64,000 nucleotides of DNA from the NCBI RefSeq assembly GCF_020736365.1, contig NZ_CP085988.1:1308001-1372000 (forward strand). The letters are read 5' to 3'. The position numbers and the translations under genes are program-made. Below are positions 13,800 to 21,094 of the stretch, piece by piece. Within the stretch, counting starts at the first letter, position 1. Each line of letters opens with the position of its first letter. The stretch is from Clostridium sp. M62/1 (lineage in GTDB: Bacteria; Bacillota; Clostridia; Lachnospirales; Lachnospiraceae). Below the pieces are notes generated by a model that made no database searches, was not told the DNA's origin, and saw only the letters and a list, made by a program, of their open reading frames with translations.

Positions 13800-14666
13800 T
13801 CAGCCAGGGAGCATGATATTAAGCAGGACGCACAGAAGGGACCCGATAAGGGTTGGGAGCAGAAAGGCAACGGCCGTCCACAGCCAGCTTCCTGTTTCCT
13901 TCCTGATGGTCAGGCAGGTAGTTGAGCAGGGCCAGTGAAAGAGGGAGAAAACTGCCATACAGAGGGCAGTTTTCACAGTCCACCCGTGGGCAGACAGAAG
14001 AGAAAAAAGCTGAGCCTGATCGGACATTTCAACCAGCTGGCCGGTCTGCAGATAGGCCATCAGGATAATGGGAATTACAATCTCGTTGGCGGGAAAGCCC
14101 AGTATAAATCCGGTCAGGATCACGCCGTCCATACCCAGAAACTGTCCAAGTGGTTCAAGAAGGCCGGAGAGCCGGGAGAGCAGGCTCAGATTTCCGACGT
14201 TAATATTGGCTAACAGCCAGATAACAAGCCCTGCAGGTGCGGCCACCATGAGAGCGCGCCCCAGAACGAAGAGAGTCCGGTCAAAGACAGAGCGGATCAG
14301 TACCTTGCCGATCTGCGGCTTTCTGTAGGGCGGAAGCTCCAGGGTGAAAGCAGAAGGAATCCCGCGAAGCAGCGTCTTGGACAGAAGAAAGGAGGACAGT
14401 AAAGTTGCGGCAATTCCCAGCAGAATCAATCCGGTCAGGAAGGCGGCCGTTATGAGAGAGCAGAGGAAGGGCGAGCCGCTTCCCGCTTCTTTAAACAGTC
14501 CGAATCCTCCCATAAAAAACAGGGAGATCAGCATAATGAGCGTAGGAAATCTCCCGTTGCAGGGAACCAGGGAGTTTGTGAGAATGGCGATCAGGCGCTC
14601 TCTGGGAGAGTCGATAATCCGGCATCCCACAACTCCGGCTGCATTGCAGCCAAAGCCCATAGCCAT
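13800..14666 (-). pseudogene. feoB: feoB 3' part, separated by a mobile element
   Basis: The C-terminal half of the ferrous iron transporter FeoB. The frame opens exactly at the element boundary with MAMGFGCNAAGV, which is the internal FeoB motif M-x-x-GFGCN that normally sits mid-protein. About six further hydrophobic segments follow, with gate-type motifs LPPYRKPQ and FPANE. The first half lies at 19706-20832. Joined at the shared CATG the two parts give 663 codons, a normal FeoB length, with no base lost. No ribosome site precedes the ATG at 14666, so this half is probably not translated while the element is in place. There are no internal stops, which suggests a recent or reversible insertion. 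Confidence 0.92.
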
Positions 14667-14690
14667 GCGTAGTCATCGCCGGCAGCGCCG
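14661..14690 (-). other. Left attachment site (att) of the element
   Basis: Host feoB sequence up to CATG (14664-14667) joins the element arm CGTAGTCATCGCC. The arm includes the recombinase stop codon (TGA in the minus-strand TGACTACG). Confidence 0.85.
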
Positions 14691-15668
14691 CTTTTGAATT
14701 TCCTCTTTACATGCTTCAAACACAGCTTCGCTCACAAGAGGCTCGTGGGTTCTTCCGGCATCCACCCACAGCTCCGCAGGGTTTGCCACCGTCAGCCTGC
14801 TTTTGAAGGAGAGTTTGCGGCTTTTTCCCTGAATCATACGGCCTAGGTAAACGGGATTGTGGAGCATTTTTAAGACGGAGTTCGCTGTCCAGATACGTTT
14901 AACTGTGTAATTGTTTTCACAGAGCCATGGATGCTTCAGGCAGCGGTAGACAGCGGGGGAGGGGATTTTTCTCTGATTTAAACTGTCTGCGATCTCAGCA
15001 GGTGTTCTGCCCTCAGCTCCCATGGAGAATATTTCTTTAACGATGGAGGCGGTCTCCGGATCGGGAATCAGCTGCACAGGAGGGCCGGGCTGCTTGATAT
15101 AGCCGTAAGGCGCAAAATTTCCTATATAGCTTCCGTCCTCCATCCTCGTCCGCAGGGAAGAGCGGATCTTTCTGGAAATATCTCTGGCATACATTTCGTT
15201 GATGATATTTCTGAAGGGAATGAGATCCATGTCGGAAACAGCTGAATCATAGCCGTCGTTGACTGCAATAAAGCGGACATTCATCGAGGGGAAAAAAAGT
15301 TCTGTGTACTGCCCGGACAAAATATAATCTCTGCCGAGCCGGGACAGATCCTTGGTCATCACAAGATTAATCTCTCCCCGCTTAATATCCCGGATCATTT
15401 CCTGAAATGCAGGCCGGTCAAAGGTGGTTCCAGACCATCCGTCGTCCGAATACTCGCGGACGATGGGAAAGCCCTTCTCCTGTGCATACCGCAGCAGAAG
15501 CCTGCGCTGGCTTCCGATACTGGAACTTTCCTTTCGTCCGTCATCGTCTTTTGAGAGCCGCAGATAGATAGCTCCCCGCAAATGACTGCCTTCACGGTTC
15601 TGAGGCTGTTGGCCTGCGGCGTTTCCTCTTTTCAAATGCCTGTCGTACGTGTCGTGCTCATACTGCAA
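14673..15668 (-). CDS. Serine recombinase (integrase) of the feoB element
   Basis: 331 residues. The resolvase-type catalytic domain starts with AIYLRLSKDD (nucleophile likely S39) and has SIGSQRRLL, SDDGWSGTTFDRPAFQEM and KDLSRLGRDY. A recombinase domain follows (NGYD-like AVNDGYDS, APYGYIK, NPVYLGRMI). It ends with KRRCRR and lacks the zinc-ribbon and coiled-coil C-terminus of most large serine integrases (usually 450-550 residues), so it is a short form. The start is TTG at 15668 with AGGTGAG 6 bases upstream; no in-frame ATG precedes the catalytic domain. The stop codon lies inside the attachment arm. It should catalyse integration into and excision from feoB. Confidence 0.92.
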   Translation of the reverse strand: MQYEHDTYDRHLKRGNAAGQQPQNREGSHLRGAIYLRLSKDDDGRKESSSIGSQRRLLLRYAQEKGFPIVREYSDDGWSGTTFDRPAFQEMIRDIKRGEINLVMTKDLSRLGRDYILSGQYTELFFPSMNVRFIAVNDGYDSAVSDMDLIPFRNIINEMYARDISRKIRSSLRTRMEDGSYIGNFAPYGYIKQPGPPVQLIPDPETASIVKEIFSMGAEGRTPAEIADSLNQRKIPSPAVYRCLKHPWLCENNYTVKRIWTANSVLKMLHNPVYLGRMIQGKSRKLSFKSRLTVANPAELWVDAGRTHEPLVSEAVFEACKEEIQKRRCRR

Positions 15669-15860
15669 CTGTGCTCACCTCGTTTGGCGGCGGCTGTTTA
15701 AGAGGCAGCCGCTATGCGTTCTATAAAATATATGAAAAACAGCCAGTCTCCTTTCCCGGATGTCTGTGAGAACAGGAGAAGTTATGAATCTGCCGGCAGC
15801 TGGAGCCCTGTATGAAAAGCTGGGGAAGAAACTGCCAAATCATAAATTTCCATAAAACGG

Positions 15861-15889
15861 TTGTGCTGGATCTTTAAAAATAGTATGAT
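15861..15889 (+). promoter_or_regulatory. Promoter of the element cargo genes
   Basis: TTGTGC (15861-15866) and TATGAT (15884-15889) are 17 bp apart. Transcription would cover the Sel1-repeat gene and the GTPase gene. The rest of 15669-15928 shows nothing else. Confidence 0.6.
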
Positions 15890-15928
15890 AGCCATAGAAA
15901 TGATTTGAGAAAATGAGGAAAGTGAAAT

Positions 15929-17431
15929 ATGGCGGTATTAATGTCAGAGCTGTGCAGCCAGGGAGCAGATTTAATCTGGAAGCAGTGCAACGAGGAGCTG
16001 TTTGCGCAGGGACTTGAATATTTAGAGAGAGCAGCAGAGGACGGGGATGCGGATGCTCTCTTCTTTCTGGGACACTGCTACAGCTGGGGAGATGCGGCGG
16101 TAGGCTTTAATGATAAAAAAGCATATGAGTGTTATCTGGCCGGTGCGGAAGCCGGAAGCGCCCGCTGTGTGCTGGGAGCGCTGCGGGCGGGGCAGTACGA
16201 TGAGCGGCTGCAGGCGCAGGCCCGGTATTCTCTGGCAGAAAGCCTTCAGATTGTGATGGAAGCGGCTGCAGGAGGGGAGCCCTATGCCGCTTATCAGCTG
16301 GCAGATGGATTTTACTATGACGATTTTTATGACATTCTTCCCAAGAGCGAGCGGGCTGCCGGAAACTGTTTCAAATGGTATGAAAAGGCGGGAGAAGGCG
16401 GAATTGTAAATGCCATGGAGAGAGCAGGAAAATGCTGCTTTTCCGGGACCTATACCCGCAAGGATGTGTCGGCGGGACTCTATTGGGCAGAGAAAGCCGC
16501 AGCAGCCGGGAGCGCCTGGGGGCTGCTGAAGATGGGGCTGTTTACCCTGGAACAGCAGGATTATGAGGCCGCGTTTGCCTATTTGTATGCAGCTGCCCGC
16601 CAGGGAGATGAGGAGGCCCTCTTCTATCTGGGGGAGATGTGTCTGAACGGGGCGGGAACCGAACAGGATACCGAGCAGGCGATTGCCTTCTTTGAGGAAG
16701 CTGCCAGGCACGATAACAGGGAAAGCTTTGTCAGGCTGGGGCAGATCTACTCAGAAGGAGAGTATGAAAATTATGAGAGAGCCTGCTACTGGTACAGCCG
16801 GGCCTATGCCGCCGGAGATCATCAGGTTGGCCTTGCTCTGGGAAGACTGTACTGTATGCCGGGAGAGTACCAGGATTTCCAGAAGGCCGAAAGGCTTTTA
16901 GCTGAGTATGCCCAGGGGGAAGAGGATGGACAGGCCTGCTGTCTGCTGGCTCATCTTTACCATGAGGGCCTGATTCCAGGCTCCGGTGCAGAAGAAGCGG
17001 CGGCGTATTTCGAGCAGGGCGCAGCCATGGGAAACGATGAATGTATTCAGATTCTCGGGCATCTCTACTTTGAGGGAGAGGAGCTTCCCCAGAACTATGC
17101 CAGGGCCTATGAACTGCTAAACAGCTCCTGGGAAAAGGGGACGCTTAGGGAGCTGTGTCAGCTTGCCTATCTGTGCCGGAATGGCTATGGATGTGAAAAA
17201 GATGAGAAGCGGGCTGCAGAGCTGTACAGGAAGACTGCAGAGACTGAGAAAAACGCGGATGCCTACTATGAGTTGGGCAGCTTATATGAAAAAGGAACAC
17301 AGATTCAGCGGGATCTGGAGCAGGCGGTCGATTACTACAGACAGGCAGCTCTTTTGGGAAATGACAGCGCCAGAAGGAGGCTTACACACTTTAAGCGCAA
17401 CATTTTTGGAAAGTGGAAGTATGTCAACTGA
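15929..17431 (+). CDS. Sel1-like repeat (TPR-type) protein, element cargo
   Basis: A 500-residue protein made almost wholly of Sel1-type helical repeats: A-x-x-x-LG-x-x-Y-x-x-G units such as ADALFFLGHCYSWGD, EEALFYLGEMCLNGAG, ESFVRLGQIYSEGE and DAYYELGSLYEKGT. There is no signal peptide or transmembrane segment, so it is a cytoplasmic scaffold for protein-protein contacts. GAGGA lies 9 bases before the ATG. It is the first gene of a two-gene unit inside the feoB element, with the GTPase starting about 100 bp later. The partner is unknown; it might modulate the ribosome-protection GTPase or the host stress response. Confidence 0.87.
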   Translation: MAVLMSELCSQGADLIWKQCNEELFAQGLEYLERAAEDGDADALFFLGHCYSWGDAAVGFNDKKAYECYLAGAEAGSARCVLGALRAGQYDERLQAQARYSLAESLQIVMEAAAGGEPYAAYQLADGFYYDDFYDILPKSERAAGNCFKWYEKAGEGGIVNAMERAGKCCFSGTYTRKDVSAGLYWAEKAAAAGSAWGLLKMGLFTLEQQDYEAAFAYLYAAARQGDEEALFYLGEMCLNGAGTEQDTEQAIAFFEEAARHDNRESFVRLGQIYSEGEYENYERACYWYSRAYAAGDHQVGLALGRLYCMPGEYQDFQKAERLLAEYAQGEEDGQACCLLAHLYHEGLIPGSGAEEAAAYFEQGAAMGNDECIQILGHLYFEGEELPQNYARAYELLNSSWEKGTLRELCQLAYLCRNGYGCEKDEKRAAELYRKTAETEKNADAYYELGSLYEKGTQIQRDLEQAVDYYRQAALLGNDSARRRLTHFKRNIFGKWKYVN

Positions 17432-17534
17432 CAGAAGGAATGGGAGTCTCTAAACGGTGCGGCAAGTCTGGAACACCGGCCAGCAGACAGATAAACGGAA
17501 AAGAAGACTGGATGAAAGCGGGAAATTGACGGAG

Positions 17535-19646
17535 ATGAAAAAGACAATAGGTATTCTGGCCCATGTGGACGGAGGAAAAACAACTTTTTCAGAACAGCTT
17601 CTGTATCATGCGGGAATTTTAAAGACGCCCGGAAGGGTAGATCAGGGAAATACGCTTTTGGACAGTGATCCGGTGGAGCGTTCCAGAGGTATTACCATAT
17701 TTACGGATCAGAGTCCCTTTGTCTTTGAAGGTAATACTTATTATCTGATGGACACACCGGGGCATGTGGATTTTTCAGCGGAGATGGAGCGGGCTGTGAT
17801 GGCCCTGGATGCAGCCATCCTTCTGGTGGCGGCCGGTTCCGGAGTGACGGCTCATACTGTGACACTCTGGCGTATCCTGGAAAAATATAAGGTACCTGCC
17901 TTTCTGTTTTTCAACAAGATGGATCTGGAGGGAGCTGACAGGGAAAAGCTGCTTTTTCAGGTGAGGGAGCGGCTGAGCACAGATGCTGTTTTGGTGGCAG
18001 AGCCGGAGACCCAGAGTCTGGAATCAGGAACGCTCCAGGAAGGAGAGACAGAAACGTCCCGCAGGCTGACAGAATTTATCTGCGAGAGAGAAGACAGGCT
18101 ATTGGAGCGGTACCTTTCGGACAGCCTGACAGGGGATGAGCTGAAAAGCGGGGCGCAGGCGCTGATCCGGGAAAGAAAGCTGTTTCTTTGCATGTTCGGG
18201 TCTGCGCTCAGAGATCAGGGAATAGTCGAATTCTTCCGCCTGTTTAACTGCATGCTGGAGGAGGGGGACGAAAAGGAAAGAGAGGAGCTGCCCTTTCGGG
18301 GACTTGTCTATAAGATTCGCCATGATGACAGACAGAACCGTCTCACCTTTATAAAAATTCTGCAGGGAAAACTGAGAGTCAGGGATGAGATACGCTTTTG
18401 CCAACAAGCGGAGTATACCGGCAGCTCTGGAAGAAACGGGGAGGAGACAAACGGAGCTGAAAAAGGCCTGGAAGAGGCAGCGGCGGAAAAAATCCATGAA
18501 ATACGGAGCTATTGTGGAAAAAAATTCAGCTCCATGAAAGAAGCGTCTGCAGGGGAACTCTGTGCAGTTACAGGCTTGTCCATCCCCCGCTGCGGTTCAC
18601 TGATCGGAACGGGCGGCAGAGAAATGGAGAAAGCTGACTTTTTTCTGGTTCCGTCTCTGGCAGCCAGGGTGATACCAGAGGAAGCACAGGCAGCCGCCTC
18701 CGCTGAGGAGTTTCAGCGTCTTACAGACGAACGTACAGAGCTGATGCAGAAAATCATCAGGTATATGCGGCTGCTGGAAGAGGAGGAGCCTCAGCTCAGC
18801 CTGTCGCTTTCTCCCCTCACTGTGTCGGTTATGGGTGAAATACAGCTTGAGATTATAAAACAGATGTTCAGAGAGCGGTGGGGAATTGACATCGCCTTTC
18901 TTCCGCCCAAGGTAATTTATAAGGAAACGATCGGGAAGCCGGTTATGGGCTACGGTCACTACGAGCCGCTCAGGCATTATGCGGAGGTGGCGTTCAGGCT
19001 CGAGCCGGGGGAAAGAGGGAGCGGAATTCAGTTTCGGAGCGAGTGCCCTTTGGACGAGCTGGCACAGAACTATCAGAATCTGATACGAACCCACGTGTTT
19101 GAGCGGGTACACAGGGGAATCCTCACAGGCGCTCCTCTGACGGATGTGACGGTTGTTCTGACAGCAGGCAGAGCTCATCAGAAACATACCGAGGGAGGCG
19201 ATTTTCGCGAGGCAGTATACCGGGCTGTCAGGCAGGGGCTTGAAAAGGCGGAAAATATCCTGCTGGAGCCCTTTTATCGTTTTGAAATTGCAGTGGAAAA
19301 CAGCCTGACAGGCCGGGTGATGGCGGATATTCAAAAGCGCTCAGGAACATTTGAACCGCCGGTGAGCCAGGGAAGTATGACAGTCATAGCCGGAAGAGGG
19401 CCGGTGTCAGAGTTTGCGGATTATCCGGCTGAGCTGGCTGCCTTCAGCCGCGGAGGGGGGAGCATTTCACTTATAAGCGACGGGTACGATGCCTGCCATG
19501 ACGCCTCGAAAGTGATAGAAGAAATTGCTTATGATAAGGGGGCAGACAAGGAAAACACATCAGCTTCAGTATTCTGCGCCCATGGGGCCGGATTTCTCGT
19601 TGCCTGGGATCTGGCGGAAAGATACATGCACTGTCTGAAAAAATAA
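17535..19646 (+). CDS. Tet(M)/EF-G-like translational GTPase, element cargo
   Basis: 703 residues from this ATG; a GTG at 17457 with GGGAG upstream is an alternative start. G motifs are complete: AHVDGGKTT (9-17), RGITI (51-55), DTPGHVDF (73-80) and NKMD (127-130). Domains II-V follow as in ribosomal protection proteins, with a family-like C-terminus ending near CHD. At the domain IV loop, where Tet(M) and Tet(O) have YSPVS, it reads HQKHTEGGDF, so tetracycline release activity is uncertain. A Lys/Glu-rich insertion (about 300-340) lengthens domain II. It could protect ribosomes from another drug or act as a translation factor. It is convergent with the feoB 5' part and ends 59 bp before the element end. 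Confidence 0.85.
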   Translation: MKKTIGILAHVDGGKTTFSEQLLYHAGILKTPGRVDQGNTLLDSDPVERSRGITIFTDQSPFVFEGNTYYLMDTPGHVDFSAEMERAVMALDAAILLVAAGSGVTAHTVTLWRILEKYKVPAFLFFNKMDLEGADREKLLFQVRERLSTDAVLVAEPETQSLESGTLQEGETETSRRLTEFICEREDRLLERYLSDSLTGDELKSGAQALIRERKLFLCMFGSALRDQGIVEFFRLFNCMLEEGDEKEREELPFRGLVYKIRHDDRQNRLTFIKILQGKLRVRDEIRFCQQAEYTGSSGRNGEETNGAEKGLEEAAAEKIHEIRSYCGKKFSSMKEASAGELCAVTGLSIPRCGSLIGTGGREMEKADFFLVPSLAARVIPEEAQAAASAEEFQRLTDERTELMQKIIRYMRLLEEEEPQLSLSLSPLTVSVMGEIQLEIIKQMFRERWGIDIAFLPPKVIYKETIGKPVMGYGHYEPLRHYAEVAFRLEPGERGSGIQFRSECPLDELAQNYQNLIRTHVFERVHRGILTGAPLTDVTVVLTAGRAHQKHTEGGDFREAVYRAVRQGLEKAENILLEPFYRFEIAVENSLTGRVMADIQKRSGTFEPPVSQGSMTVIAGRGPVSEFADYPAELAAFSRGGGSISLISDGYDACHDASKVIEEIAYDKGADKENTSASVFCAHGAGFLVAWDLAERYMHCLKK

Positions 19647-20832
19647 GAAGGAGGCCGGGAGAAGGGGCGGCAAAGGACTGGGGAACCGGGGCAGTGACTA
19701 CACACATGGTTAGGCACTGCTTTCCGCAGGCGCGGCATTTTTTAAATGCACAGTCCATATTGAACGCAGCTCTGGGCAGGTAGCCTAAATCCTCAAGAAG
19801 GGTAAACAGAGGGAAAAAAATGGCCATGGGAGGAAGCATGACGGAGACAATCCATGCCGCCGACCGGAACACTCCGAATACCAGGGCATCTGTAAACGGC
19901 TTTGGAGCTCCGGCAGCGCTCAGGGCAGAGGCCATCCATGTCTCGAGCCTGTAAAACTGCTCCCAGAGGAATGACGACGGGTAGTTTGCCCCGGTAATGG
20001 TAATCCAGAAGATGAGGAGCAGAAGCAAAATCATCACAAGGCCTCCGGTCAGACGGCCCGTTAGAAAACGGTCGATGGCTTCCTGGCGCTTTCTGTAATC
20101 AGGTTTTGTGTACCGTACAGCCTGCGCAGCCAGAGCTTCAGGAGAGAAGTCATTAATTTTACAGAGATTCTGTCCAGTGCGCTGATTTGGGGATACGGAT
20201 TCCATGGAAACTCCCCTTAACATACAGCCGTGACAGCCGCAGCACTCAGCGCAAGGCTTTTCTGTGTCTTCACGAAATGGACAATGGGAAGGCAGGCTGT
20301 CCGAATTGACATTCCCGGGTTCTGTTTCGGAGGAAACCTCAAAAATTTTTTCTTTCAGAATATTGATTTGTCTTCTGTCTCTGGCTGTACAGGGAGTAAC
20401 CGGAATGCCCAGCTCCCGTTCCAGCAGAGAGAAATCAATGACAATACCCTTTTTTTCCGCTTCATCGCAGAGGTTGATGCAGAAGAGGAAGGCGGTGCCG
20501 GCAGACAGGGGAAGTTCAGAAAGCTGCTTTAAGAGATGGAGACTTCTTTCCAGACAGGTGGCGTCTCCGATCACGATCAGCACGTCTGCCTGACCGGAAC
20601 AGATAAAATCTCTGGCAATTTCCTCCTCCTCTGAATGGGTGCGAAGGGAGTAGATTCCCGGCAGATCCGTCAGCTCACAGACGGATTCTCCCAGGGAAAA
20701 AACGCCGGTGGCGCAGGCTACTGTTTTTCCGATCCAGTTTCCCGTATGCTGCCTGAGCCCTGTAAGGCCGTTAAAAACAGTGCTCTTTCCCACATTCGGA
20801 TTTCCCACAAGGGCGGCTTTAACAGTTTTCAA
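19471..20832 (-). pseudogene. feoB: feoB 5' part (G domain and first membrane segments), truncated by the element
   Basis: FeoB is the ferrous iron permease with an N-terminal GTPase. Visible are G1 GNPNVGKS (10-17), DLPG (56-59) and NLCD (120-123). A Cys-rich linker (about 188-205; C-x9-C-x2-CC-x-C-x2-C) and hydrophobic segments lead up to GKQCLTM at residue 376. At that codon (19707) the frame runs into the mobile element and adds 77 foreign residues before a stop at 19471. The G domain should fold but the pore half is missing. The start overlaps feoA by 14 bp, so the two were one operon. Iron uptake through Feo is expected to be lost unless the element excises. Confidence 0.93.
19688..19712 (-). 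other. Right attachment site (att) of the element
   Basis: The element arm GGCAGTGACTACACA joins CATG (19705-19708) and host feoB sequence GTTAGGC. Joining the two element ends predicts an attP with TGACTAC and GTAGTCA arms around the CATG core. Joining the host ends predicts an attB with TA-x-CCATGG-x-TA symmetry. Confidence 0.85.
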
Positions 20833-21094
20833 GTGAGTCCACCTCCTTCAGGTCTTCCTGCATGTCAGGCTCCTCAGCCAGAATGAGCCGGGAGTCCTCC
20901 CGCCGCAGCGCAATGACGGCATTGCGGACAAGAAAAGCAGAGATAGCCCCATGACTGCGGCTGAGAGTGCAGGTAACAGCAGTGCCGGGGGTAAAGCCCA
21001 GATCTAAAAGACGAGCGGTAATCGATCTATCATCTGACAGCCAGCGGATGACAGCCGACTGGCCTGGTTTCAGCAAACTAAGAGGTCTAAGCAT
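20819..21094 (-). CDS. feoA: FeoA, SH3-like partner of FeoB
   Basis: 91 residues with the FeoA fold: an N-terminal PLSLLKPGQSAVIRWL, the conserved RLLDLGFTPGTAVTC (the L-x-x-LG-x-x-PG-x-x-V signature) and a C-terminal A-x-R-x-x-D-x-R-L-I-L-A. FeoA is a small cytoplasmic SH3-domain protein that binds FeoB and supports Fe(II) transport. The gene overlaps the feoB start, showing translational coupling. In this strain its partner is split by the element, so it may be idle or act only in cells where the element has excised. Confidence 0.92.
   Translation of the reverse strand: MLRPLSLLKPGQSAVIRWLSDDRSITARLLDLGFTPGTAVTCTLSRSHGAISAFLVRNAVIALRREDSRLILAEEPDMQEDLKEVDSLENC

Follow-up and report, generated by a model that had tools for sequence, protein, structure and literature searches.

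What becomes of an iron-transporter gene that carries an insert with its own recombinase in the middle of its reading frame? The question is raised by a 64,000-nt stretch of the Clostridium sp. M62/1 genome (the window, G000:C1:1308001-1372000, G000 being the label of the host genome), in which a 5,041-bp element, with a CATG at either end, follows codon 376 of feoB and interrupts this minus-strand gene, as read from the sequence. The reading favored here, with a probability of roughly 0.6, is that of a domesticated gene-intervening element, probably removed from the DNA of some cells so that feoB is made whole again. We infer such excision from the conservation pattern, which suggests exact removal of the insert in some cells.

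The two halves of feoB share one frame. Codons 1-376 (20832-19705, the last codon being ATG) encode the FeoB_N domain (Pfam, 6e-50), and their frame continues into the element to give 453 aa with a stop at 19471. The 3' part (13800-14666, minus strand; 288 codons plus stop) begins at the ATG of the core, adds 287 codons (14663-13803) to the first 376, and carries the FeoB_C and Gate domains. The two CATG copies, at 19705-19708 (N-side junction, attL) and 14664-14667 (C-side junction, attR), lie 5,041 bp apart. A single coding gene is cut in frame, as expected of a gene-intervening element, and precise joining would restore the frame. An inner inverted repeat lies inside the cores, with the arm GTAGTCA at 14669-14675, 1 bp inside CATG, and its counterpart TGACTAC, which reads GTAGTCA on the feoB strand, at 19695-19701, 3 bp inside. 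The initial annotation had described base-exact CATG attachment (att) cores splitting feoB in one frame, mirrored inner ends, and a site-specific serine-recombinase element with feoB as its target; all three descriptions hold. The search for intact feoB in relatives that it had called for found the exact empty site in two of seven congeners. The split is not due to chance: in four of the seven other genus genomes, homologous genes break feoB at the identical codon, and the two congeners with the empty site are intact.

The element in the window carries just three genes: a truncated serine recombinase, Rec (14673-15668, minus strand, 331 aa); a Sel1-repeat protein (15929-17431, plus strand, 500 aa, PF08238); and an EF-G/TetM-like translation GTPase (17535-19646, plus strand, 703 aa, assigned by family search). 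The initial annotation had left the truncation of Rec unmentioned and the other two genes unnamed. The upstream partner gene feoA (PF04023) lies at 20819-21094 on the minus strand.

A short Rec is present in five of the eight genus genomes (the C. symbiosum group, the window's own genome included), and the same feoB codon is split in each. The four congeneric carriers, one of them [Clostridium] symbiosum ATCC 14940 (L067), show the order thrC and/or sfsA, feoA, feoB 5' part, Sel1, Rec, feoB 3' part (sfsA was not found in G004, nor thrC in the G006 piece). Their elements measure 2.65-2.77 kb and are without the GTPase. In G002 and G003, feoB is intact as one 641-codon frame at the corresponding position, next to feoA and thrC; both show the predicted empty site CCATGGCNATGGGC, and neither a short Rec nor Sel1 was found in them at the thresholds applied. 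G001 has no feoB ortholog and no Rec. It retains Sel1 adjoining thrC at the feo locus (L227, G001:C22, 9399-10910), so the element was probably once present there; as Sel1 survives alone, it may have a function of its own. The FeoB tree places the window species outermost in the genus (inner group 91/95) and the intact G002 and G003 among the split species, which fits one clean loss on the evidence of the tree.

Rec contains PF00239 and the complete PF07508 (positions 1-102 of 102), i.e. the catalytic and recombinase domains of a large serine recombinase, and no PF13408. The zinc ribbon that defines the family is absent from the Rec of the window and from L035 and L038 on scanning, and from the precomputed Pfam content of all 33 short Rec clusters; all five long relatives scanned have it, L069 just below the curated cut-off. 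The short proteins end ahead of the coiled-coil position and leave no room for a coiled coil, no dedicated search for one having been made. Judged by its domains, Rec is derived from the large serine recombinase family and is without one of its defining parts. The 28 top matches in a protein search are all 307-348 aa long and have only the Resolvase and Recombinase domains, and five more short two-domain proteins occur among the 120 best matches listed. In a tree of 74 rows (33 short proteins, 26 of the 87 listed long ones and 15 loci), the short forms make up one branch of 38 rows, 33 clusters and five genus loci, with support 100/98; four of the genus loci nearly duplicate a cluster. The short Rec of G416 falls outside this branch in the best tree, on a long branch, and 39% of bootstraps unite all short forms. 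The catalytic motifs are intact in 33/33 short clusters, and the element thus has a recombinase of its own with the catalytic residues kept. An AlphaFold model of Rec (mean predicted local distance difference test score 76.8, predicted template modeling (TM) score 0.53) has the SP-beta integrase as its best fold match (309 columns, TM 0.44 by query); in sequence, Rec matches residues 18-294 of the 545 of that integrase. Among sequences in the PDB, Rec best matches the catalytic domain of TnpX, and the XisF family model matches it weakly (50 bits; cut-off 375). Runs of three neighboring large serine recombinases occur at G000:C1:665972-670256 and at L092, L106, L114, L122, L142 and L144.

Far from being a recent minimal insertion, the element is old. 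Distances in Rec correlate with those in FeoB, with r 0.93 for each feoB part across 15 genomes, and in the short-Rec clade with a Mantel r of 0.87 over 14 pairs, nine of which are matched only by a longest contig of equal size; the permutation tests ignore relatedness. The 15-genome comparison omits L086 (N part cut by a contig end), the decayed G327, and G404-G409 and G412 (fetched pieces without all three genes). Recent horizontal spread was rejected on this co-divergence. The FeoB N-part tree holds 105 of the 120 listed proteins, the 15 without the motif having been dropped. It places 39 of 40 split proteins on one side together with nine intact ones, at a side support of only 87/66, and needs 8 changes of state against 31 in shuffles. 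A longest contig of equal size with a short Rec was found for 9 of the 40 split N-part clusters and for none of the 10 intact ones nested among them. The simplest reading of the tree, as yet unproven, would be a single gain of the element and several losses.

Related recombinases were also sought beyond the genus. Scanning named genomes by Rec alignment gave 80 loci, and three of the top 20 are congeners. A feoB part lies within the fetched flank at 12 of the 20 loci with at least 46% identity to Rec and at none of the 60 below 46%, where many contigs are short. Larger pieces add a feoB part at L071, L076, L079 and L081, and at L073 by contig number only; the feoB parts are on other contigs for L072 (only the C part found) and L074 (both found). 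The C part was found in 15 of the 16 genomes of L069-L084 and a full-length frame in none; for L084, no more than fragments of the N part are present in the genome. Thirteen of the 15 C-part frames have 289-339 codons, one has 515 (G416), and one of 195 is cut by a contig end. The relatives residing in split feoB in other Firmicutes include those of Dielma, Agathobaculum and Aristotella, and the Rec of non-genus relatives is mostly 509-595 codons long. Their cargo, judged by eye with no family search, is ABC-transporter-like in Dielma, and threonine-dehydratase-like with other genes in Aristotella. By eye, the feoB elements of G316 and G416 (L230, L233; 14.5-15 kb) share similar large nonribosomal peptide synthetase (NRPS)-like genes and regulator-like genes. 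In several Agathobaculum elements, as in Aristotella and G061, Rec points away from the feoB C part. Among Agathobaculum species (L170-L174, L231, L232) the orientation of Rec relative to feoB varies and the element ranges from ~10 to 35 kb; the differing orientation may reflect inversion or reshuffling.

These relatives bring up an ordinary family of mobile elements for which feoB is merely an insertion site, with the loss of feoB tolerated via paralogs and its parts still seemingly whole because the insertions are young or are lost now and then. Long-Rec relatives with varied cargo (ABC-transporter-like, NRPS-like and metabolic genes, by eye) would agree with such a family, but Rec and FeoB diverge in step in 14 lineages, gene order and place are identical in five species, and the truncated Rec is under selection. 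Neither transfer or replication genes nor horizontal spread was found. Phage and plasmid matches are distant: those listed (10 of the 16 plasmid records) reach at most 45.4% identity to Rec, and all 16 plasmid records are below 60%. Even with the other FeoB-like frames of the genus and the decayed feoB of G327, both described below, counted in its favor, this explanation is unlikely. The mobile unit implied by the initial annotation's term "minimal integrative element" is not supported either: Rec ends before the zinc ribbon and co-diverges with feoB, and the phage and plasmid matches listed come no closer than ~45%.

Both halves of feoB, like Rec, are under purifying selection while feoB is split. 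The ratio of nonsynonymous to synonymous substitutions (dN/dS) is 0.05-0.15 for the N part, 0.04-0.17 for the C part and 0.07-0.11 for Rec; the control pair with intact feoB gave 0.12 and 0.06. For symbiosum/transplantifaecale dS is 1.1-1.8, and for transplantifaecale/G005 it is at or close to saturation. There are no stops in the matched stretch of either feoB part in any of the 15 genomes used. This resemblance to intact feoB, the absence of stops and the selection on Rec itself make it highly improbable that feoB is a dead relic, a pseudogene fixed by an old insertion, as might be proposed from the lack of an excised allele among the matches listed, the decay in G327 and the loss of feoB and Rec from G001.

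Selection on both parts could also be met if FeoB worked as two chains, the C part being made from the core ATG by translation coupled to the end of Rec; the TGA of Rec lies 6 nt ahead of that ATG in 5/5 genus members. The C-part ATG, however, is preceded by no Shine-Dalgarno match of at least five in 20 of 21 loci, and the N-part tails range from 5 to 154 residues. Where Rec faces away from the C part, as in the Aristotella, G061 and Agathobaculum elements noted above, there is no coupling. Two chains are therefore a rather improbable solution. FeoB is expected, from its family, to need both parts. Because both parts are selected, both are expected to be needed, and 20 of 21 loci offer no ribosome-binding site for the C part, rejoining at the level of DNA is the solution favored here. 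In an attempt to place the cut on an experimental FeoB structure, the only structures that the intact G003 protein matched were of the N-terminal GTPase.

A scheme for the domesticated, excisable element can be outlined from these data. An integrative element with a feoB-specific large serine recombinase would have entered feoB at codon 376 long ago, and in the ancestor of the C. symbiosum clade the recombinase would have lost its C-terminal zinc-ribbon/coiled-coil part. The shortened Rec would act on attL and attR of one DNA molecule, with crossover inside CATG (at TG, by symmetry), deleting the element exactly and rebuilding feoB, and re-integration would be poor. The element would then have been inherited vertically along with feoB. 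This FeoB would be switched off in the majority of cells and produced only in those with active Rec, and excision, catalyzed by Rec and regulated, might be triggered by iron limitation or sporulation. A Listeria integrase without its coiled coil gave excision with each of the four pairs of sites examined, and its integration was only at background level (PMC3783163, in the portion available). By analogy, excision with no integration is what one would expect of a natural Rec missing that part. It is possible, although we would put it below even odds, that loss of the zinc-ribbon/coiled-coil part turned the integrase into a one-way deletase, domesticating the element as a heritable off-to-on switch of ferrous-iron uptake that is kept in about thirty lineages and used in cells that leave no or rare descendants.

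A number of observations weigh against excision and the scheme built on it. A Listeria mutant without the whole zinc domain bound DNA ~25-fold more weakly (same source and portion); since the excising Listeria enzyme missed only the coiled coil, excision by Rec can be proposed only conditionally. At the level of clusters, that of the window (130 sequences) and that of C. symbiosum (315 sequences) occur only in split form in two protein searches, and the 120 best proteins listed in each search include no intact form close to either; excision would therefore take place seldom, in cells that yield no genomes, or not at all. The genetic switch put forward in the initial annotation accordingly keeps the purifying selection on both feoB parts in its favor and lacks an excised allele among the matches listed. 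All eight genus genomes hold further FeoB-like frames of 636-819 codons, which puts the need for the split FeoB in doubt. In G327 (L167) the element-bearing feoB is decayed, the N part being without the usual start and the C part broken after ~40 codons, and Rec is full length. A thrC tree of seven genus members does not settle the position of the intact pair, and no clear sporulation or iron promoter was seen.

At the att sites, CATG is present at 5/5 genus loci and at all 11 long-Rec loci in which the N side was read. Along the feoB strand, the loci of the genus have TGAC...CATG...GTCA, with a symmetry center, derived by hand, at the TG within CATG; the stop codon of Rec sits inside the inner arm. 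The GTCA arm is present in the four congeneric carriers, and the residues encoded immediately past the core are compatible with it for 42 of the 45 N-part clusters that were parsed, one of the three misses being a misparsed intact protein. An outer GCATYC repeat occupies a fixed C-side place at 13 of 17 long-Rec loci against none of six short-Rec loci, with 11 of the 13 positives from Agathobaculum and four long-Rec loci without it; its mirror is found on the N side at 5 of 11 long-Rec loci. The absence of the outer repeat at short-Rec loci fits the presumed loss of a binding site for the zinc domain. Searches of IMG/VR with attP junction patterns gave 1, 0 and 0 matches, and the sole match, L234, is unlike all queries, Rec included.

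The Sel1-repeat gene, oriented divergently to Rec, is present in 5/5 genus elements at 47-50% identity. Its protein, looked at as a directionality factor, is the only non-Rec gene product common to the five, and its dN/dS is 0.06 in one unsaturated pair. By eye and without a statistic, it has a sigma-A-like promoter in four of five species (in the window TTGTGC-N17-TATGAT, 15861-15889, plus strand). Upstream of Rec, GCATA (15713-15717, minus strand, 49 nt before the start) is the only 5-mer common to all five species at -70 to -25; a common 5-mer arose in 12 of 2000 shuffles with five species and in 75 of 2000 with four. We take it, weakly, as a possible sigma-E/K-like -10 motif. A sigma-E-like core was found upstream of Rec in two of five species and a sigma-K-like one in none. 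A sporulation link by gene content was rejected as not discriminating: spoIVA was found in 22 of 27 genomes searched, i.e. in 19 of 24 with a close Rec relative, the five without it being metagenome-assembled genomes of 1.7-2.1 Mb, and it is above the cut-off in 104 of 150 genomes of the family. The EF-G/TetM-like protein was rejected as a Tet(M)-type ribosomal protection protein and is not termed a resistance gene product because its 385 bits fall below the curated cut-off of 775. It is the sole match in G000 at E 1e-60; each of the seven remaining genomes of the genus has a single match, at another place. These matches are 47-50% identical across residues 317-700 and lie in frames of 903-1001 codons. 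On these comparisons it looks like a host gene relocated into the element.

If the favored reading is true, iron uptake in C. symbiosum and its kin would be controllable by deletion of DNA. The direction-giving part of integrases has been studied by engineered deletions (PMC3783163, in part), and the ~33 protein clusters with a recombinase minus that part would offer a natural experiment on integrase domestication. The words feoB and ferrous are absent from the portion of the main text available for a large survey of recombinases (PMC10083194). The split-feoB element was not found described in the literature searched, which comprised open-access PubMed Central papers.

Inserts of the gene-intervening kind are known in developmental, nitrogen-fixation or competence genes. 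TnpX and TndX, found on mobile elements, are related in sequence, the TnpX catalytic domain being the best PDB match of Rec and TndX, on plasmids, 44.5% identical among the matches listed; unlike Rec, they are full length and have no tie to feoB. In skin (sigK) and SP-beta (spsM), a serine recombinase deletes the insert and the gene is rebuilt (PMC5595907, in part), and the SP-beta integrase is the best fold match of Rec, but both are phage-derived, with a full-length recombinase and developmental target genes. The fdxN element (XisF) and other nitrogen-fixation elements (PMC8987985, in part) are likewise removed to rebuild a gene; target and host differ, and the XisF model has 465 positions against the 331 residues of Rec. 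Also alike is gin in gerE of Bacillus cereus ATCC10987, a non-phage insert that splits a gene and has a serine recombinase, a short core and exact rejoining; it differs in having three recombinases, with GirX controlling the direction of GirC, and a sporulation gene as target (PMC5595907, in part). The feoB element has one truncated recombinase, an iron-transporter target and an excision that is so far predicted. It is thus of the same kind as gin, skin, SP-beta and the nitrogen-fixation elements, and what is new in it is the target gene, the naturally truncated recombinase and the long vertical retention.

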